A DNA stretch of 34,282 bases from a virus. Of this stretch, positions 3,779 through 25,210 are shown piece after piece (the stretch's first letter is position 1; each line of letters opens with the position of its first letter). The notes below the pieces were generated by a model. It had not been told where the DNA came from. It made no database searches and was given only the letters and a program-made list of their open reading frames with translations. The position numbers and the translations under genes were made by a program. The stretch lies in IMG/VR virus record IMGVR_UViG_3300025652_000249, positions 1 through 34,282 of that record, one strand, 5' to 3'.

Positions 3779-3969
3779 TGTTCGAGCAAGAAAGAAAAGC
3801 AATTGTGGGTCTCGCTATGGTTGTGATCATAGCGATCGCCTTCCTCTGGGTATCCAACGAAGACTACAAGCACGAAGTCGAGATGGAAAAGCAATACCGC
3901 GAGATGGTATGCGCGGGTCACTGGCCGGACTACTGGCAAACCAATCCAAACTGTAAGGGAGAATCATGA
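3778..3969 (+). CDS. small single-pass membrane protein
   Basis: 63 residues starting at the ATG that overlaps the preceding TAA; an upstream in-frame TTG is less likely. A short charged N-terminus (MFEQERK) is followed by one hydrophobic segment (residues about 8-25, AIVGLAMVVIIAIAFLWV), then a charged helix and a C-terminal part with two cysteines (VCAGHWPDYWQTNPNC). If the N-terminus stays in the cytoplasm, the tail would be periplasmic and could form a disulfide. It resembles small phage membrane proteins with a C-x-G-x-WPDY tail that I have seen without a known role. A spanin-like or superinfection-exclusion role is possible but unsupported. It overlaps the methyltransferase gene start by 4 bases. 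Confidence 0.6.
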   Translation: MFEQERKAIVGLAMVVIIAIAFLWVSNEDYKHEVEMEKQYREMVCAGHWPDYWQTNPNCKGES

Positions 3970-4811
3970 AAGTCCTTGACCTCTTCTCCGGCATCGGTGG
4001 TTTCTCTCTCGGCCTTGAGTGGGCTGGGATGGAGACCATCGCGATGTGCGAGAAGGATAAATTTTGCAGACAAGTTCTGGCCAAGCACTGGCCGGACATC
4101 ACCATTCACGAAGACATAAGGGATTTAGATGGGAAAGATTACGAAGGATCAATTGACGTTGTTTGCGGAGGATTCCCCTGCCAACCATTCTCAGTTGCAG
4201 GCAAGCAACTTGGAAAGGCAGATGACCGTCACCTCTGGCCTGAAATGTTACGAGTCATCAAAGAGTCAGCTCCCACTTGGGTCATTGGCGAAAACGTTTC
4301 TGGGTTCGTCCGGATGGCACTCGACGATGTGTGCTCTGACTTGGAAGGTGAAGGTTACCGAGTCCAATCGTTTGTTATTCCGGCTTGTGCCGTCGAAGCC
4401 CACCACCGCAGAGACAGATGCTGGGTTGTGGCCTACTCCGACGAGAATGACCGGCGGCGAAGAGATAGCACCATCTCACAGGAACGGCACACATGGATGG
4501 AACATCGGAGCGGCGGTCAAGGACAGTCTCTCGGCGGATCCGATTCGGATGTGGCCGACCCCGAGAGCGAGCGAGTACAAAGACTGCGGTCCTGTGGGCT
4601 CGAAGAGTCACACGCATATGGACCAGCGCTCGTACCTCTGTGCGAAGGCGAAGGATTCGGATCGACCTACTGGGAAACTGAGCCCGATGTGGACCGAGTG
4701 GTTGATGGGGTTCCCAATCGGGTGGACCGAATTAAATCCCTCGGAAACGCGGTAGTCCCTCAGCTTGTACAAAGAATAGGAGAAATGATCTATGCCGAGC
4801 ACCAAAGATGA
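3966..4811 (+). CDS. dcm: DNA (cytosine-5-)-methyltransferase
   Basis: 281 residues. Conserved C5-methyltransferase motifs are present in order: motif I DLFSGIGGFSLGLE (5-18, S-adenosylmethionine binding), motif IV GGFPCQPFS with catalytic C72, motif VI GEN (108-110), motif VIII-like HHRRDR (146-151), and motif X SLGNAVVPQLVQRIG (258 onward). The target-recognition part between about 155 and 245 is short, typical of compact phage enzymes. It should methylate cytosine within a short site, probably protecting phage DNA from host restriction; no cognate endonuclease gene is visible. The start is the ATG overlapping the previous stop. Almost all of the gene from base 4129 to 4755 is also open in a second frame that encodes a family-like protein (next entry). 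Confidence 0.92.
   Translation: MKVLDLFSGIGGFSLGLEWAGMETIAMCEKDKFCRQVLAKHWPDITIHEDIRDLDGKDYEGSIDVVCGGFPCQPFSVAGKQLGKADDRHLWPEMLRVIKESAPTWVIGENVSGFVRMALDDVCSDLEGEGYRVQSFVIPACAVEAHHRRDRCWVVAYSDENDRRRRDSTISQERHTWMEHRSGGQGQSLGGSDSDVADPESERVQRLRSCGLEESHAYGPALVPLCEGEGFGSTYWETEPDVDRVVDGVPNRVDRIKSLGNAVVPQLVQRIGEMIYAEHQR
4129..4755 (+). CDS. ORF nested out of frame inside the methyltransferase gene (208 aa)
   Basis: This ORF lies entirely within the methyltransferase gene in the +1 frame. Its product does not look like a random shadow: it has LTLFAEDSPA (9-18), two WPTP motifs (101-104 and 142-146, MWPTPRASEY) and a C-terminal WLMGFPIGWTEL (191-202). I recognise this combination from proteins found next to, or annotated with, phage and bacterial cytosine methyltransferases; their function is unknown to me. 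The bases for MWPTPRASEY encode VADPESER in the methyltransferase frame, a stretch also common in those enzymes. Its ATG has an AGGG-type ribosome binding site about 7 bases upstream. It could be a true overprinted gene or only an imprint of conserved methyltransferase codons. Confidence 0.5.
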   Translation: MGKITKDQLTLFAEDSPANHSQLQASNLERQMTVTSGLKCYESSKSQLPLGSLAKTFLGSSGWHSTMCALTWKVKVTESNRLLFRLVPSKPTTAETDAGLWPTPTRMTGGEEIAPSHRNGTHGWNIGAAVKDSLSADPIRMWPTPRASEYKDCGPVGSKSHTHMDQRSYLCAKAKDSDRPTGKLSPMWTEWLMGFPIGWTELNPSETR

Positions 4812-5528: not shown

Positions 5529-5837
5529 CTAACCCTCCCCTTCGGTCTCATCTCGAGGCCGGAGGTGGAGAATGTTTGAATTCGCCATGCTTCCCATCCG
5601 CTCATTAATTAATATTAACTGTTCGTGATTGTCAGGTATTGCCCAAAAATCTTTATCAAGCAGGGGCTGCCACGTTCCCACGCTCTGGACCTTGGCCTCT
5701 ATGTTCGGAAACCTAACATTTCGAAAATGTTCAGCGACTTCTTCCGCAGATTCCTTGCATGTGTAATGCCCATCCTTGAACCCAGTACCTACAAGAATAA
5801 CGTCATAGTAGTCTTCGTGACTGTCATGCACCATCAT
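5529..5837 (-). CDS. hypothetical phage protein (102 aa)
   Basis: 102 residues, no domain recognised. It begins MMVHDSHEDYYDVILVGTGF and contains a central region (TCKESAEEVAEHFRNVRFPN) that reads like strand-helix-strand; the overall shape could be a small alpha/beta fold. The start is preceded on the reverse strand by GAGGAGATAG, a good ribosome binding site lying inside the end of the small terminase gene, with which it overlaps by 14 bases. It is the last gene of the leftward block and converges with the gene ending at 5527. Confidence 0.65.
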   Translation of the reverse strand: MMVHDSHEDYYDVILVGTGFKDGHYTCKESAEEVAEHFRNVRFPNIEAKVQSVGTWQPLLDKDFWAIPDNHEQLILINERMGSMANSNILHLRPRDETEGEG

Positions 5838-6543
5838 CTATCTCCTCATCCTCATCGTCATCTTCCCAGAACGAATCATCCTCATCCTCATCTTCAACCT
5901 CGTCCTCCTCAAGATCGTCATCACTTACGACATCGTCCTCGACATCTTCAACCTCGTCCTCGAGATCCTCCACCTCTGATGGATCAATCACCTTGGGCGC
6001 AAGTTCATTCTTCTCAATCAAAGCCATGAGTCTTGCCTCCACCTCTGAGCGGTCCATCTGATCGATCTTACCGGTCTTGATCTCCTTCTTATCAATCATC
6101 AACCCAGCAAGCTTTGCCCGTCCCAGCTCCGCCTGTACTGCCGCACCGTACACACCATCCTCCATCGCCGCATCCCGAATCTTTTGCAGGTCACGCGCAA
6201 CCTTCTCAAAAGTAATCTCATACTTCCTCTGCTCGAGATCCTTCATCTCCTGAATCTTTCCTTGGATATGGGTATACCTTGGATCGTTCAGCATCTTGGT
6301 CGCAGCGACTGCGGGGAATGAGTACCCTGCTCGATGAGCGCATTCGGTATTGGTCAGATCATGATAGACATACAACTGGATGAACCGTTCTTGCTTCGGC
6401 GTAAACTTCATCTGCTTACGTCTTGGCTTGTACTGTTCTGGGTTCCTGAGAATGTCCTTACCTGGAGGAATCTTAAAGTCACGCGCTTCGGCCTCACGCA
6501 TCACCTCTGCGACCTCATGCTTCATCTCACCTGCATCACTCAT
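5824..6543 (-). CDS. terminase small subunit (Terminase_2-like)
   Basis: 239 residues from the ATG at 6543, which has AGGAG 8 bases upstream; an in-frame TTG ten codons earlier is less likely. Residues 47-100 match the helix-turn-helix DNA-recognition part of Terminase_2-type small subunits: FTPKQERFIQLYVYHDLTNT, AHRAGYSFPAVAATKMLND, then RYTHIQGKI. A helical oligomerisation region follows (residues about 105-180). The last 50 residues are almost wholly acidic (runs of D and E from 187 to the end), an unusual tail. In the family this protein recognises the packaging site and recruits the large ATPase/nuclease subunit. The large subunit is not in the window; the gene is separated from the structural block and transcribed beside the primase-helicase block. 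Confidence 0.75.
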   Translation of the reverse strand: MSDAGEMKHEVAEVMREAEARDFKIPPGKDILRNPEQYKPRRKQMKFTPKQERFIQLYVYHDLTNTECAHRAGYSFPAVAATKMLNDPRYTHIQGKIQEMKDLEQRKYEITFEKVARDLQKIRDAAMEDGVYGAAVQAELGRAKLAGLMIDKKEIKTGKIDQMDRSEVEARLMALIEKNELAPKVIDPSEVEDLEDEVEDVEDDVVSDDDLEEDEVEDEDEDDSFWEDDDEDEEIDDGA

Positions 6544-6666
6544 TTTTAAATCTCCTGCTACAACCCGCCACAAAAATTTTTTATTTTCTCAAGCCCTCTA
6601 AGAATACAAGAGAGAGTACACCGATAGGGAGATATTTTTAATATATCTCTCCCTCTCTTTAGAGAG

Positions 6667-6849
6667 CATACCTACCATACCATCATACCACCCTTATAAA
6701 TCAATGACTTACGAGGTAGGTATAGTAGGCATGACGTAGGTATGACATATAGTGACCATACCTACCTACTTTCCCTATGTATTTCAAACACTTACCGACT
6801 TATCCACAGGGGGTAGGTATGATTTCAGATTTTTCATTTCATACCTACC
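6667..6849. repeat. six iterons with core CATACCTACC / GGTAGGTATG
   Basis: Forward copies: 6667-6676, 6757-6766 and 6840-6849 (all CATACCTACC). Reverse-orientation copies: 6715-6723 (GGTAGGTAT followed by A), 6735-6744 (CGTAGGTATG, one mismatch) and 6812-6821 (GGTAGGTATG). AGTGACCA flanks two of them (6751-6758 and 6852-6859). The order is plus, minus, minus, plus, minus, plus. Confidence 0.75.
6800..6808 (+). promoter_or_regulatory. perfect DnaA box (TTATCCACA)
   Basis: TTATCCACA matches the bacterial DnaA-box consensus TTATNCACA exactly and is three bases from the fifth iteron. A single copy was seen in this stretch. By itself a 9-mer can occur by chance; its place within the iteron array makes it more meaningful. 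Confidence 0.6.
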
Positions 6850-6890
6850 TAAGTGACCACTAACCTCACCTATTTTGCCTAGAAAATCCA

Positions 6891-7173: not shown

Positions 7174-7404
7174 CTAATCCGTCTTCCCCTTTCCTTCCCC
7201 ATCGAGCTCCTTCTCGATAAGTATCTGGGCATAGTGAATCACCTTCCGGAGATCATCGACCCCGCCCTTGCTTCGCCACCTACTAATGTACTTCACGATG
7301 TTCGCCTCACACCAATCCAAATTATTGGCGAGTATGTACTCGGTTGGTTGGATCATCATCAACTTATAATGATTTCCACCTATCTGATCGTCAAATGCGC
7401 TCAT
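7174..7404 (-). CDS. DUF3310 protein (T7 gp1.7-related family)
   Basis: 76 residues. The conserved DUF3310 pattern is clear: QIGGNHYKLMMIQPTEYILA, then NNLDWCEANIVKYISRWRSK and GGVDDLRKVIHYAQILIE. DUF3310 is common in phages and is related to the C-terminal part of T7 gp1.7, a nucleotide kinase; whether this short form has kinase activity is not known. Length is normal for a stand-alone domain. Its ATG overlaps the stop of the upstream small ORF (TAATG), with GAGAAGGAGGTG as ribosome binding site. A structured element follows immediately after its stop. Confidence 0.9.
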   Translation of the reverse strand: MSAFDDQIGGNHYKLMMIQPTEYILANNLDWCEANIVKYISRWRSKGGVDDLRKVIHYAQILIEKELDGEGKGKTD

Positions 7405-7899: not shown

Positions 7900-9960
7900 T
7901 TATTTTTGTGATTCATCTTCCGACTCGACTTCCCACGGTTTCGCTGCCGTGCTCGTACCGAGATAATGCCACATCGCCATGCCCGGTTCTGAATGGGTAT
8001 GCACGATATGACTTAAGTGTTTCTGAACGTGAGTGACTGCACGCTGACAGGCATTCACACCATTTGCTTTCTTGTGTCGCTTGAGGGCAGTCTTCGCTAA
8101 GAACTCCAGCTCTGCCCTCTTATAAAATTCGTTTTCTTTCATCGCCTTCATGACGATTCCCGCTATCTCTACCTCGTCCTCTGCTACCTCTTCATCACTC
8201 TTCTTGTTTGGTGTCCGAGTGAAGTCGCTGACCTCCCACAAGCCATCATCGAAGTTGAACAACGATATATGTTCCTGTGGATCTGCTGCGTTACGCGCCT
8301 CATAAAAGATATTGATGTTAGGTTTCTCGCCCATCAACTTGATCCCGCTGTCGAACCAACCCGCGAACACCGACCCACCTCGAGCTGACAGGAAGGACCG
8401 GTCATCCGCCCTCTCTTTACCCGTATGGTGTGCGATGATTGTCGCCACGTTGTTCATCTCCATGAGCATATCAACCCGATCCAAAAGCTTTCTGATCTCG
8501 GTGTTGCTGTTCTCCTCACCATCAAAGAAGTTAATGATCGGATCGATCATCACGATGTCTGGGTTGTGGAACGCTACCTCATCACTGAACGCTTGGATGT
8601 CGCTATCCTTCATGAGATTCTTTCTGAGCCGTCCACTGATAATGAGGTTATCAAACCCCATCTGCCGGACCTCATCGTTCGTTGAGAATCTTTGGTAGTA
8701 CATCTCGACGCGCTGCTTCAGGAACTCTGCAATGATCTCAGCCTGAAACCACATCACCTTGAGCGGTTTGTTGAACGGGACACCCATAAAATCTGTGCCG
8801 GTCGTTGCACCTGCCGCGAACGCGCCAAGCCAGTTGGACTTACCGATCTTAGGCTTACCCAACAAGAGCACCCGACTGTTCTCGAAGATAAACTTATCAC
8901 CCCAGTACTGCTCAATGGTATCGTCCTCCATGGACTGCCACTCAAAGCTACTGAAGGGTACTAAACCAAGGGGTCCTGAATCTGGTTTTTCAGGGGTATC
9001 AATAGGATCTTCTTGCTCCTGGATCTCCTTCAGATCTTCGGTCAATCCTGTGTGCCACGTTGATGTGTTCCACTGGTTGATGCCGCTCTCAGCTAGGTCT
9101 GGGTTCCGCTTGATATGCCCTTGACATATAGACATAACTGTTTTAGTTGCTTCGACCAAGTCCATCGGCGGTGAACAGCTTTGATTCCAGTCCTGCGCCT
9201 TGATGAGAACTTCCCGAAGACCCCATCCTTCTTTGATCCACTTGCCGACCAACCGTGCGAGGGTGTCGTTGCGACTACCTTCGACCTTCGGATCCTCGGT
9301 GAGCTTCTCTCTGATGCTTGGGACTTCCCCAGTGTTGGGATCGACAGAGTTAAAGCCATGGATGTGTTGCAGGTCTACACCCGACAGCAATGGCAGATCA
9401 TCAATTGATGTTACGCCATAGGATTGCTCACACTCTAAGCGATAACCTACGCTGGGCGCGATCATCACATACCCGCCATCACCACGGACATCGATCTTAT
9501 TCTTGCCGACACTGTTTCGAATGTCATCGGGTCCGAGTGCGTAGAAGTAATGGGTGCCACCTCGAGGCGTTATCTGTTTAAGCGGTGTGCGCGTAATGCC
9601 ACCAGACTCTATCCATGTAACGGCTTCGTCACTGTCTGCATCGACAACGGCAAATGCTATGCCGGTTATGACAGCCCAGTTTGCTTCAGGGTATTGTGAA
9701 TGCCACTGCTTTATTTCTTCTTCGCTCGGTTGAATGGTTTGATAGTGCGTCCATTTAACTCGAGGTGTCTTCGCCCATTTTGCTTTAAGCGCATCATCGG
9801 TATCGAAGGGATGCCGACTGCGAAAGTACTGCGGTACTGTTTCTTTTGGAGAACCACACGGTATGACATGGAAGCCAAGCTCCCACATTGCATGCAGCCA
9901 ATCAGCTTTATGATCAGGCTCTAGATTTTCTCCACAAAATTTCTGCTGGAAAAAATGCAT
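7900..9960 (-). CDS. bifunctional primase-polymerase / RecA-fold (RepA-like) helicase
   Basis: 686 residues. The N-terminal half is a Prim-Pol domain (PF09250-like): WAVITGIAFAVVDADSDEA contains the metal-binding D107-x-D109, followed by TPRGGTHYFYA (131-141) and IDVRGDGGYVMIAPS (156-170). The C-terminal half is a RecA-fold ATPase of the AAA_25/RepA type: Walker A GKPKIGKS (368-375), Walker B DIVMID (468-473), AHHTGK (510-515) and SARGGSVFAGW (525-535). In related replicons such fusions make primers and unwind DNA at the fork. The ATG at 9960 lies next to the upstream stop, with GGGTGG as ribosome binding site. No DNA polymerase is seen in the window; one may lie outside, or host polymerase may be used. 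Confidence 0.88.
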   Translation of the reverse strand: MHFFQQKFCGENLEPDHKADWLHAMWELGFHVIPCGSPKETVPQYFRSRHPFDTDDALKAKWAKTPRVKWTHYQTIQPSEEEIKQWHSQYPEANWAVITGIAFAVVDADSDEAVTWIESGGITRTPLKQITPRGGTHYFYALGPDDIRNSVGKNKIDVRGDGGYVMIAPSVGYRLECEQSYGVTSIDDLPLLSGVDLQHIHGFNSVDPNTGEVPSIREKLTEDPKVEGSRNDTLARLVGKWIKEGWGLREVLIKAQDWNQSCSPPMDLVEATKTVMSICQGHIKRNPDLAESGINQWNTSTWHTGLTEDLKEIQEQEDPIDTPEKPDSGPLGLVPFSSFEWQSMEDDTIEQYWGDKFIFENSRVLLLGKPKIGKSNWLGAFAAGATTGTDFMGVPFNKPLKVMWFQAEIIAEFLKQRVEMYYQRFSTNDEVRQMGFDNLIISGRLRKNLMKDSDIQAFSDEVAFHNPDIVMIDPIINFFDGEENSNTEIRKLLDRVDMLMEMNNVATIIAHHTGKERADDRSFLSARGGSVFAGWFDSGIKLMGEKPNINIFYEARNAADPQEHISLFNFDDGLWEVSDFTRTPNKKSDEEVAEDEVEIAGIVMKAMKENEFYKRAELEFLAKTALKRHKKANGVNACQRAVTHVQKHLSHIVHTHSEPGMAMWHYLGTSTAAKPWEVESEDESQK

Positions 9961-21592: not shown

Positions 21593-24500
21593 TTATCCTC
21601 CCTGGTTGTTGCGGTTTTGATATTGATTATAAAAATCTAAACCTTGGCCTGCTAATCCTAAGTAACCACCAATCTTAGCGGCTGTGCTTGGATCTTGATA
21701 AGCCCCAACTTGATTAGACTGAGTACCATACCCGCTTGAGTATGTTGGCAAGTATCCAGCCAATCCGCCAAGCATTTGCTGGCCACGCTGTAATCTCATG
21801 TACGGCTCATCAGCCATCTGTGTCGCAGCAGTATACTGATTGCCATAAGCGCGATCCTGAATGCCTCGACCAGTCTGTCCAAGCCCTGCCATGGTTCCGA
21901 TCTGACCTGTAAGCATGTTGTATCCTTGCTGACCAAGTCCGGCAATACCCGCAGCGCCTCCTCGTTGTGCAGATCCACTTGCGCCGTATGCATTAAGGGC
22001 GGTCCCATACTGTTGTTGCGTCTGACCAAACATACCACTTGCTGCGCCTTGCATCCTACGCATTTGGTCTTCATAACTGCCCATGCCCATCTGTTGAGCT
22101 TGGCCGTACTGAGAGGCCATGCCTTGACCAATGTCTGCACGTTGGCCAGCAGCGCCTATTTGAGCGCCAATACCTTGCATGCCAAGCTGACCACGTTGAG
22201 CAGCAGAGCTACCGATATCTCTACCAGCTTGCATCCCAGCCTGACCTTGAGATTGAGCCGTGCTAAATGCTTGTTGACCCAACCGCGCTTGAAGTTCCGC
22301 TGTAGAGATACCCAATTGAGCGGCTTGATTGGCAATGTTTGCTTGAGCTTGCTGGCCCTGCGTACCTGTTTGGGCTCTTTGGAATGCGCCTGTTTGGCTC
22401 ATCTGTCGGCCTTGCTGAGTAGCAGCTTGACCTTGACCCGCTAGTTGAGCGCGTAACTGATCAGTGCTGATTCCAAGATTAGCGGCACGTTCTGCTAACT
22501 GAGATTGAGTTTGTGAGCCTGATATACCTAACTGAGAACGATCTAATGCTCCTCTTTGAGCCATCTGCTGTGACGACATTTCTGCTTGTTGGCTTTGACC
22601 TGATAATTGAGATCTTAATTGATCGGTACTAATGCCTAAGTTAGCTGCTCTTTCAGCAAGTTGAGCTTGATTCATTTGCCCAGTCATTCCTAACTGAGAA
22701 CGATCTAATGCTCCTCTTTGCGCCATCTGCTGTGACGACATTTCTGCTTGTTGACTTTGACCTGATAATTGAGATCTTAATTGATCGGTACTTATGCCCA
22801 AGCTTGCTGCACGTTCTCCGAGTTGAGCTTCGTTCATTCGACCTGTCATGCCAAGCTGCGCTCTATCTAATGCTCCTCTTTGCGCCATCTGTTGAGAACT
22901 GGCTTCAGATGCTTGACCTTGTTGAGCCATCTGAGATCGTAATTGATCAGTACTAATTCCAAGGTTAGCTGCTCTTTCAGCTAACTGAGATTGAGTTTGT
23001 AAGCCTGATATACCTAACTGAGAGCGATCTAAAGCTCCTCGTTGAGCCATCTGTTGTCCAGCCATTTGTGCAGCTTGACCTTGACCTTCTAATTGAGATC
23101 TAAGCTGATCAGTGCTAATACCAAGGTTTGCCGCTCGTTCAGCAAGCTGACCTTCGTTCATCTTGCTTGTCATACCAAGTTGACCGCCCTGGAATGCGCC
23201 AGACTGAGCCAGCTCTTCCGCAGATAAGCCTAAGTTTCCTGCCGCTTGTGCTGCTTGTAATTGAGTTCCTGCGCCAGCTTGGCCAAGGGATGAGGTCAGT
23301 TGTCCAAGGTTTTGCTGACGGCCTTGAGCTTGCTCAAAGGATTGCTGCGCTTGTTGCGCCGCTTGCTGATAGCCTTGAGATCTTAATTGAGCACCAGTTT
23401 TAGCCTGCTGCTGCAAGATATTTCTACCGATCTCAGCTTGCTCAATGCCGCCTCTAGATCCACCAAAAGCACCAGATTGAATGGCTTGAGCTTTTGCCTG
23501 TTGCCTCTGCTTGTTACCAAGCCTTTCAATCTCTGCCTGTTCAGCATCAATTACGTTTTGAGTATACGGATCCATAAACCTATCAATAGTAGATGGATCA
23601 AATTGAGCGCCAGTTCCTTTTAATGCAGCTATGCCTTCTTGAGCGTATTTTCTAGATGATTCGCCAGCACTTTCTAACTGTCTTCCAGCTTGAGCTGTTT
23701 GAGCCCTTGCCCTTGTTGTCGCCTCTAAAGCTCTTTGTTGAGCCGTTCCAACTTGAGAACCTATACCTCTTGAAGCTGCAGCTATCGCTGCCTCTCCCTG
23801 TCGAGCGCCTGCACCGGCTTCTTTTCCTATTTGCCCCAGCCGAGAAGATAATGTGTTGGCAGAGCTTATAGCCGCTTGTTCTGCGGTAGTTGCTTGAGCT
23901 TGTCCTCTTAATACCTCGGGTCGAACATCTCTTAAGGCGCTTTGTATTTGAGCCTCTCCTTGTCGAGCGCCTGCTCCAGCTTCTCTACCTATGGTTCCAA
24001 GCTGTGAAGAAAGACTTTTGGCAGATTGAATGGCCGCTTGCTCTGCAGCAGTTGCCTGAACTTGACCGCTCAAAACTTCTGGCCTAATCCCTCTTGAAGC
24101 TGCAGCGATAGCTGCCTCTCCCTGTCGAGCACCTGCACCAGCTTCTCTACCTATGGTTCCAAGTTGTGAAGAAAGACTTTGAGCAGAGCTTATAGCCGCT
24201 TGCTCTGCGGCAGTTGCTTGAGCTTGTCCTTTTAAGACTTCAGGTCGAACACCTCTTAAGGCAGATTGAATTTGAGATTCACCCTGCCTAGCGCCTGCTC
24301 CAGCTTCTCTACCGATAGTTCCGAGCTGTGAAGAAAGACTTTGAGCAGATTGAATAGCTGCTTGTTCTGCCGCAGTTGCTTGAGCTTGTCCTCTTAATAC
24401 TTCTGGTCGAACATCTTTTAAGGCGCTTTGTATTTGAGCCTCTCCTTGCCGAGCACCTGCACCGGCTTGGTCACCAAATCCCTGTAACTGCTTTCTTAAA

Positions 24501-25210
24501 TTTTCAGCTTCAGACTGAGCTTGACCTTCTTGGTATCGAGACTCTGTCTTCGCTTGCGATACACCAGTACCTATATTAGAAGCAGCTCGATTCATTGCCA
24601 TTTGGCCAGTGTCAGCTTGACCTCCAACCCTACCAGAGGCCATTAAAGCCATTCTCTGAGCTATCGCAGCTTCATCGGCAGAGCTTGCAGCGCCTTGTCT
24701 AATTAAATCTTCGCCTTCTCGCATACCAGCTTGAGCAAGATTAATTTGCCCGGGTATTTTTCTAGAAAGATCACCTAACTCTTGAGATGCACCTCGCATC
24801 ATTGATCGCCCTTCGGCGTCGAGAAACTGTTGCCCCATGGTTGGATCATAAGCGCCAATGCTTTGCATATACAAAGCTCGAGCTTGAGGATCTCCATAGA
24901 TACCAGCCGTTCCGGGATCGAATCCTTGCCCAGACTGACGATACATTCTTTCCGCTTCAGCAAGTTGGCCACCAAATCCACCAAGTCCTTGCGCTGCATT
25001 TCTAGCTTGTATTTCAAGCGGAGAAAGACCAGCGACTTGCTGAATCGGAATGGGAATCTGCTGGTTTATTAAACCTGGTTGATCAGGCGTTCCGAAGTAA
25101 CTCGCCAAAAGGTTCCTTGAGGTAAGCTCTACCGCAGGATCATAATACTGCTGCGAAGCACTCGGAAGAACATATGGTTGTTCCTGATCAGTTAATACTG
25201 TTTCACTCAT
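21593..25210 (-). CDS. glutamine/alanine-rich repeat protein of the virion (1205 aa)
   Basis: The protein carries two different tandem arrays, both with a 54-residue period. Array 1 (residues about 250-465, four full units and one partial) has units beginning GAGARQGE and ending SLSSQLGTIGREA. Array 2 has six units, four close ones starting AQRGALDRSQLG with NLGISTDQLRSQL in the middle. The rest is also rich in Q, A and G, and overall helical, consistent with a long fibrous or coiled-coil protein. No catalytic motif is seen. Position and size suggest an internal virion, tail or ejection component. It overlaps the 674-aa gene by four bases (ATGA). Its 54-residue units could form stacked helical hairpins; this is inference. 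Confidence 0.65.
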   Translation of the reverse strand: MSETVLTDQEQPYVLPSASQQYYDPAVELTSRNLLASYFGTPDQPGLINQQIPIPIQQVAGLSPLEIQARNAAQGLGGFGGQLAEAERMYRQSGQGFDPGTAGIYGDPQARALYMQSIGAYDPTMGQQFLDAEGRSMMRGASQELGDLSRKIPGQINLAQAGMREGEDLIRQGAASSADEAAIAQRMALMASGRVGGQADTGQMAMNRAASNIGTGVSQAKTESRYQEGQAQSEAENLRKQLQGFGDQAGAGARQGEAQIQSALKDVRPEVLRGQAQATAAEQAAIQSAQSLSSQLGTIGREAGAGARQGESQIQSALRGVRPEVLKGQAQATAAEQAAISSAQSLSSQLGTIGREAGAGARQGEAAIAAASRGIRPEVLSGQVQATAAEQAAIQSAKSLSSQLGTIGREAGAGARQGEAQIQSALRDVRPEVLRGQAQATTAEQAAISSANTLSSRLGQIGKEAGAGARQGEAAIAAASRGIGSQVGTAQQRALEATTRARAQTAQAGRQLESAGESSRKYAQEGIAALKGTGAQFDPSTIDRFMDPYTQNVIDAEQAEIERLGNKQRQQAKAQAIQSGAFGGSRGGIEQAEIGRNILQQQAKTGAQLRSQGYQQAAQQAQQSFEQAQGRQQNLGQLTSSLGQAGAGTQLQAAQAAGNLGLSAEELAQSGAFQGGQLGMTSKMNEGQLAERAANLGISTDQLRSQLEGQGQAAQMAGQQMAQRGALDRSQLGISGLQTQSQLAERAANLGISTDQLRSQMAQQGQASEASSQQMAQRGALDRAQLGMTGRMNEAQLGERAASLGISTDQLRSQLSGQSQQAEMSSQQMAQRGALDRSQLGMTGQMNQAQLAERAANLGISTDQLRSQLSGQSQQAEMSSQQMAQRGALDRSQLGISGSQTQSQLAERAANLGISTDQLRAQLAGQGQAATQQGRQMSQTGAFQRAQTGTQGQQAQANIANQAAQLGISTAELQARLGQQAFSTAQSQGQAGMQAGRDIGSSAAQRGQLGMQGIGAQIGAAGQRADIGQGMASQYGQAQQMGMGSYEDQMRRMQGAASGMFGQTQQQYGTALNAYGASGSAQRGGAAGIAGLGQQGYNMLTGQIGTMAGLGQTGRGIQDRAYGNQYTAATQMADEPYMRLQRGQQMLGGLAGYLPTYSSGYGTQSNQVGAYQDPSTAAKIGGYLGLAGQGLDFYNQYQNRNNQGG
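22237..23208 (-). repeat. 162-bp tandem repeat array 2 (54-aa units)
   Basis: About six in-frame 162-base units; the four central ones share AQRGALDR and NLGISTDQLR. The copies around 22540-22640 and 22700-22800 are almost identical at DNA level, indicating recent duplication or gene conversion. The outer units (AQSGAFQGG and SQTGAFQRA types) have diverged. Confidence 0.8.
23816..24463 (-). repeat. 162-bp tandem repeat array 1 (54-aa units)
   Basis: Four full in-frame units of 162 bases within the 1205-aa gene; a partial fifth follows toward 23.7 kb. Units differ by scattered substitutions; two forms of the segment after GARQGE alternate (AQIQSAL and AAIAAAS types), suggesting exchange between units. 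Confidence 0.8.

Follow-up and report, generated by a model that had tools for sequence, protein, structure and literature searches.

What is the purpose of a cluster of short repeats that lies in a gene-free part of a viral genome, and which protein recognizes them? The stretch in question occupies positions 6544-6890 of a 34,282-base IMG/VR virus record, the whole of which is here called the window. Sequence comparison across relatives leads us to conclude that a tailed marine phage very probably uses it as its replication origin, where the C-terminal winged helix of the phage primase-helicase would bind the repeats as iterons, protein and repeats switching specificity as a unit. A first-pass annotation of the DNA had already proposed an iteron origin, which remains the best reading, with the repeats kept in about 80 relatives; its guess that a small unrecognised protein nearby is the initiator did not survive.

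Repeat array and accessory sites

The record has no end repeats. Most of it is matched by a relative of 55,313 bases (G001, L012), at 85-97% DNA identity across the larger blocks; this comparison shows that the window is part of a longer genome, of ~55-58 kb. Structural gene blocks lie on the - strand, and a central replication block encodes a Sak4-like protein, an SSB-like protein, a helicase, a Cas4-like exonuclease and a resolvase; the primase-helicase, which the first-pass annotation placed in the same block, is encoded at 7900-9960 (-). The array itself sits between the primase-helicase gene and the small terminase gene. No close cultured relatives were found: the best match to the primase is in Roseobacter phage CRP-810 (22.6% identity) and the best match to the terminase is in Pelagibacter phage HTVC027P (34.9%), and a search of a genome-contig collection returned two close loci only, both metagenome-assembled.

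The gene-free stretch, 347 bases long as first described, lies between the ATG of the small terminase gene (6543, - strand) and the end of a small ORF (6891). It contains six repeats, three per strand, again in agreement with the initial description: five are exact copies of GGTAGGTAT, at 6668, 6758 and 6841 on the - strand and at 6715 and 6812 on the + strand, and the sixth, CGTAGGTAT at 6735 (+), has a single mismatch. The unit can be written GGTAGGTAT(G), with an optional tenth base G. These five exact copies are the only ones in the window and all fall within 6668-6849. When the 347 bases were shuffled 2000 times at constant mononucleotide composition, no shuffle contained any 9-mer at five copies, and 0.05% contained one at four copies. 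Degenerate copies beyond those listed initially raise the number of cores to about nine (Table 1).

Table 1. Features of the window in and around the repeat array
Feature	Position	Strand	Remark
Small terminase subunit (Terminase_2)	5824..6543	-	Directly downstream of array; present in 74/80 relatives
AT-rich hairpin, GGGAGAGATATATTAAAAATATCTCCC	6627..6653	.	Read on - strand
Small conserved hairpin, CTCTCTAAAGAGAG	6653..6666	.	Read on - strand
Iteron 1, GGTAGGTATG	6667..6676	-	Same column in relatives
Degenerate iteron, core GGTATG	6676..6681	-	Cognate core in that column in relatives
Degenerate iteron, core GGTATG	6684..6689	-	Cognate core in that column in relatives
Perfect IHF consensus site, AATCAATGACTTA (WATCAANNNNTTR)	6699..6711	+	Absent from first-pass annotation
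Iteron 2, GGTAGGTATA	6715..6724	+	
Degenerate iteron, GTAGGCATG	6725..6733	+	Reads GTAGGTATG in near relative L014
Iteron 3, CGTAGGTATG	6735..6744	+	Single-mismatch copy
Iteron 4, GGTAGGTATG	6757..6766	-	
Second IHF-like site, TTTCAAACACTTA	6782..6794	+	One mismatch; perfect in many relatives
DnaA box, TTATCCACA	6800..6808	+	Only one in window
Iteron 5, GGTAGGTATG	6812..6821	+	
Iteron 6, GGTAGGTATG	6840..6849	-	
Primase-helicase gene: Prim-Pol / PriCT_1 / RepA-like (AAA_25)	7900..9960	-	Proposed initiator
C-terminal winged-helix domain, residues 596-667	7960..8175	-	AlphaFold2 prediction
Predicted recognition helix (helix 3), residues 635-648	8017..8058	-	Residues 635, 636, 639 and 640 track repeats

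The elements that assist iteron origins, namely a DnaA box, an IHF site and an AT-rich element, are all present in the window. The exact DnaA box, likewise reported at the outset, appears by chance in 0.6% of the 2000 shuffles. Among relatives, 22 of 80 arrays contain the box TTATNCACA, a density of 1.02 per kb compared with 0.012 per kb elsewhere in the loci; for the perfect IHF site the figures are 62 of 80 arrays and 4.14 versus 0.089 per kb. Both enrichments are counted over related arrays and are uncorrected for relatedness. One clade carries the IHF site at a similar place but on the opposite strand. The perfect IHF site is missing from 18 of the 80 arrays and the DnaA box from most relatives.

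The AT-rich hairpin of the initial description also stands, and a small second hairpin adjoins it. Across 28 distinct relatives, 97% of the cells of the small hairpin are paired, and at three of its four pairs both sides have changed. The 52-base stretch that holds the hairpins folds with z = -3.4 relative to dinucleotide shuffles. The AT-rich hairpin is kept between clades with changed stem sequence and changed register; one fixed stem was rejected, given that just 75% of cells are paired and the register depends on the clade. This hairpin may serve as an unwinding or priming element. An RNA element was also considered and rejected: the array region has no Rfam match, and the last repeat cluster is direct in many relatives, so that hairpin pairing cannot keep all copies alike.

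Variation of the repeat and of the primase-helicase among relatives

With the terminase and several primase-helicases as queries, about 230 loci were retrieved, a good number of them overlapping; the comparison set comprised about 80 distinct loci. Where the contig is long enough, an array of similar size usually lies 0.4 to 3.8 kb past the stop codon of the primase-helicase gene, with 5 to 12 cognate cores. Aligned arrays keep positions, orientations and spacers, so the repeats are held in place in about 80 distinct relatives, a point on which the initial reading had been staked. The core itself differs by group while being near-uniform within any one array. Seven natural cores are found (GGTATG, GGTACA, GGGTCA, GGTGCA, GGGGCA, GGTACG and TGTGCA), and very close relatives can differ in theirs, as do L060 and L062; L024, L027 and L028; L074 and L075; and L043 and L044.

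The primase-helicase has a Prim-Pol domain (PF09250, E=5e-17). Of the solved structures, pRN1 ORF904 alone matches it in sequence, and ORF904 is also the best fold match. Its helicase part matches Pfam AAA_25 at residues 339-517, with no match to an SF3 or D5 family, and weakly resembles RSF1010 RepA, T7 gp4 and DnaB on fold comparison. AlphaFold2 modelling of the whole protein predicts a separate C-terminal domain with the order helix-helix-helix-strand-strand (helices 596-606, 615-628 and 635-648, strands 653-656 and 664-667) and a mean pLDDT per 10 residues of 81-91 over residues 601-670; the domain modelled alone gives the same elements at lower confidence. Its PDB fold matches are generic winged helices (cullin WHB, Cdt1 and the Fur family, Z up to 8.8) and thus show the fold only. 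In two contigs of the GGTATG type, L033 and L035, the reading frame of the primase-helicase is interrupted shortly ahead of the recognition helix, through either a sequencing error or a real truncation.

Residues of this domain vary with the repeat. A first scan, over primase-helicase columns in 39 distinct proteins, ranked residue 639 first, 635 second and 636 fifth. We then compared phylogenetically independent pairs from 80 distinct loci on a tree built from residues 14-570 only, which omits the C-terminal domain. On this tree the repeat type changes 17 times by inference, compared with 45.6 changes expected for shuffled labels. Residue 639 differs in 14 of 15 pairs with different repeats and in 2 of 25 pairs with the same repeat; the corresponding counts are 11/15 and 3/25 for residue 635, 8/15 and 1/25 for residue 640, and 7/15 and 2/25 for residue 636. 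In that order, these four residues take ranks 1-4 among the 655 columns of the primase-helicase. All four lie at the N-terminal end of predicted helix 3, the part through which winged-helix proteins usually touch bases. No column of the terminase, the Sak4-like protein, the SSB-like protein or a neighbouring protein is comparable to them.

These counts bear on a different reading, in which the adjoining small terminase would bind the array as a packaging site (pac or cos). The array lies directly upstream of the small terminase gene in the window, the gene is present in 74 of 80 relatives, and cosB of phage lambda likewise combines repeated terminase sites with an IHF site. Yet the best terminase column changes in 7/11 different-type and 2/13 same-type pairs, which falls short of the 14/15 and 2/25 of primase residue 639. 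Moreover, the close relatives L074 (GGGTCA) and L075 (GGGGCA) differ in their repeats while their terminases differ in the acidic tail alone, by S188P and an insertion of 4 residues. Since the identity of the site does not follow the small terminase in either comparison, the packaging site offered as an alternative in the first-pass annotation is highly improbable. The primase-helicases of the same two loci show 7 differences, all at residues 627-644.

As for the small protein once suggested as initiator, the most widespread ORF family between primase and array reaches 35 of the 80 loci and no more, and the commonest families there are unrelated inserted genes; this candidate was rejected. The reader of the repeat thus appears, from these patterns of covariation, to be the primase-helicase and neither a small protein nor the terminase. 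The interval between the reader gene and the array looks like an insertion hot spot in its own right: unrelated inserted genes are found there in relatives (for example L195, L090 and L079), including a protein starting ISFSGGRTSAFML in 35/80 loci, a methyltransferase-like protein in 18/80 loci and others, and in the window a DUF3310 / nucleotide-kinase-like small protein is encoded there at 7174-7404 (-).

An operator was the other alternative raised at the outset: the primase-helicase or another protein would bind the array and control transcription of the terminase. The array does lie in the 5' region of the terminase gene, and iterons of initiators often double as transcription control sites. 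However, the protein that apparently reads the repeats is not a repressor but a primase-helicase fusion, no further protein family is found in all loci between primase and array, and the IHF and DnaA sites, together with a hairpin whose pairing is kept, fit an origin better. Scans for promoters and terminators gave nothing above chance; the one promoter-like site found scores no higher than chance and points away from the direction needed for terminase control. We regard an operator as very unlikely.

The primase-helicase gene and the array are closely linked, and joint recombination could raise the association between them. Taken to its limit, this would make the concerted change an artefact of recombination or relatedness, with arrays swapped whole and the helix travelling along. 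The end of the gene and the array are indeed within 0.4 to 3.8 kb of each other, and DNA divergence between L074 and L075 peaks over the helix-coding part and over the array, being low over most of the gene and over the terminase. Despite the linkage, the four helix residues track the repeat more closely than the remainder of the gene does; hitch-hiking would neither single out four residues on one helix face among 655 columns nor make a given repeat recur with the same residues in widely separated clades. An artefact of this kind is scarcely credible. In two other comparisons, L024/L027 and L060/L062, two helix substitutions accompany a full switch of the array. Among the switch pairs the changes are clustered in the winged helix in some (7/7, 14/19 and 11/20) and lack such clustering in others (2/9, 4/17 and 5/27). 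Otherwise nearly identical, L074 and L075 also diverge strongly in a second stretch, immediately upstream of the primase-helicase gene, at about 1700-2100 of L074, and L050 and L056 differ in a divergent 71-residue ORF upstream of that gene.

Association of four helix residues with the repeat core

The repeat marks and the four reader residues change together, and one largely predicts the other. Written as residues 635-636-639-640, the associations are N-K-Q-K/R with GGGTCA, a core also found with M, Q or D at 635 combined with K and Q, and with N-R-K-K; E/Q-K/R-M-K with GGTGCA; E/Q-K-R-N/S/K with GGGGCA; V-Q-K-K with GGTACA; V-N-Q-R with GGTATG; V-G-K-A with GGTACG; and E-R-R-Y with TGTGCA. 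Several of these pairings recur in far-apart clades: M639 with GGTGCA, R639 and E/Q635 with GGGGCA, and VQ..KK with GGTACA, the last in the L015-L022 group and in L229 from a distant clade. All TGTGCA arrays have the E-R-R-Y helix and come from one clade, and this class may represent a single event.

The predictive value of these associations was measured with a nearest-neighbour code on the four residues, fixed from 47 arrays of the first loci and applied to 39 arrays from later scans whose repeats were called blind to the protein. Strictly scored, the repeat was predicted for 33 of the 39 arrays. One failure is the same repeat called one base off (L135), three trace to one miscalled training array (L217, L220 and L232) and one comes from a contig that is too short (L200). 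The sole real exception is L214, where the helix N-K-R-N, for which the earlier code gave GGGGCA, occurs with GGGTCA; the code therefore needs more than one residue. Residue 639 alone was rejected as a code, with 30 of 39 held-out arrays predicted, poorer than the four residues together. In L234, from a metagenome-assembled bacterial bin in another collection, the helix E-K-R-S predicted GGGGCA, and 8 copies are present.

Proposed mechanism and comparison with known systems

In the mechanism that we favour, the 6 to 10 short repeats would be iterons bound by the C-terminal winged-helix domain of the primase-helicase, which is encoded about 1 kb away and would gather on them. Host DnaA and IHF would assist assembly in the lineage of the window, the AT-rich hairpin region would open, and the primase-helicase would load itself as the helicase, with its Prim-Pol domain priming synthesis. 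A switch of specificity would involve the recognition helix and all iterons as one unit, and probably comes about when recombination exchanges the array along with the end of the primase-helicase gene. Such joint recombination is the simplest route, because the divergence between L074 and L075 peaks over both segments and changes are clustered in several switch pairs.

A related possibility is that the primase-helicase binds the repeats for copy control or recruitment and that synthesis starts elsewhere. Phage P4 offers a precedent, having two regions bound by alpha, ori and crr. GC skew, suggested initially as a check, leaves the array unmarked: cumulative skew in the 55-kb and 58-kb relatives has no extreme at that site. 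The skew follows gene orientation and is thus uninformative as an origin mark. Against a separate start site, the cognate repeat forms no other dense array in the 55-kb relative G001, where five of the eight exact GTAGGTATG copies are inside the array and the other three are scattered. We consider a role in copy control or recruitment alone unlikely, and prefer an origin at the array itself.

Several known initiators invite comparison with the putative origin. P4 alpha also combines primase, helicase and an origin-binding C-terminal domain in one chain that acts on short iterons; its helicase belongs to SF3. Lambda O, pSC101 and R6K share an initiator that acts on several iterons beside an AT-rich region. 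Lambda has its iterons within the O gene, and the O protein is no primase-helicase, whereas here the array occupies a gene-free stretch about 1 kb from the gene. The pSC101 and R6K origins combine iterons with DnaA and IHF, and a separate Rep recruits the host helicase (PMC5043065), where here the proposed initiator is the primase-helicase. The primase of P4 alpha is of the TOPRIM type, and the study of pRN1 draws the comparison between ORF904 and P4 alpha (PMC4234260). Like the present protein, ORF904 is a single chain that joins a Prim-Pol and a helicase to a C-terminal winged helix, and the origin follows its gene, but it has an SF3 helicase and a 100-bp stem-loop origin without iterons (PMC4234260). 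Thus, the AEP Prim-Pol and the predicted C-terminal winged helix of the ORF904 type are found here together with AAA_25 and an iteron array in place of the SF3 helicase and stem-loop origin. No specific binding by ORF904 was detected by gel shift or footprint, and no recognition motif was identified (PMC4234260).

SaPI Rep and SCC Cch2 are helicase initiators whose C-terminal domain reads short repeats located downstream of the initiator gene; those helicases belong to D5-like or DUF927 families (PMC7581432), compared with Prim-Pol and a RepA-like RecA-fold helicase here. The present locus further differs in belonging to a tailed phage, in its DnaA and IHF sites and in its traceable residue code. 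By analogy, the system would work like SaPI Rep, SCC Cch2 and P4 alpha, of which it is no member because the helicase family differs. Concerted variation has a parallel in geminivirus Rep and its iterons, whose position and pattern are kept while their 5-6-base sequence varies with Rep among close relatives, and for which the cause of diversification is open (PMC12548392); geminivirus Rep is a rolling-circle protein of ssDNA plant viruses and is unrelated to a Prim-Pol helicase with a winged helix. In open-licence papers we found no description of this phage origin or of such a code.

A new origin specificity requires that initiator and iterons change jointly, yet the array has about nine sites. 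The switch nevertheless appears to have occurred many times between closely related phages, with 17 changes inferred on the domain-free tree and, in some cases, two helix substitutions. Natural pairs are therefore ready for testing how specificity jumps, what drives the jumps and whether origin identity separates co-infecting phages. For a large group of marine phages known without cultivation, the analysis names a candidate initiator and its site. It also supplies a candidate recognition motif for the Prim-Pol/helicase/winged-helix layout, where the work on pRN1 identified none (PMC4234260). More speculatively, these phages might keep a small set of interchangeable origin alphabets, with reader helix and repeats swapped as a cassette under selection for difference, which might, for instance, help them evade origin decoys, satellites or co-infecting relatives competing for one initiator; the four residues might then approach a near-complete natural code of one winged-helix family for a 6-base site. 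Ectopic lambda origins arrest lambda (PMC4488673).

Two further features of the window were noted. The same block also encodes a DNA cytosine-5 methyltransferase at 3966-4811 (+), matched by NCBIfam dcm with E=9e-36. Inside the ORF at 21593-25210 (-), over 22522-23170, near-matches such as AGTTAGGTAT recur every 162 bases, at 22522, 22684, 22846, 23008 and 23170; they bear no relation to the origin array, and their period points to 54-residue repeats in a 1205-residue protein.
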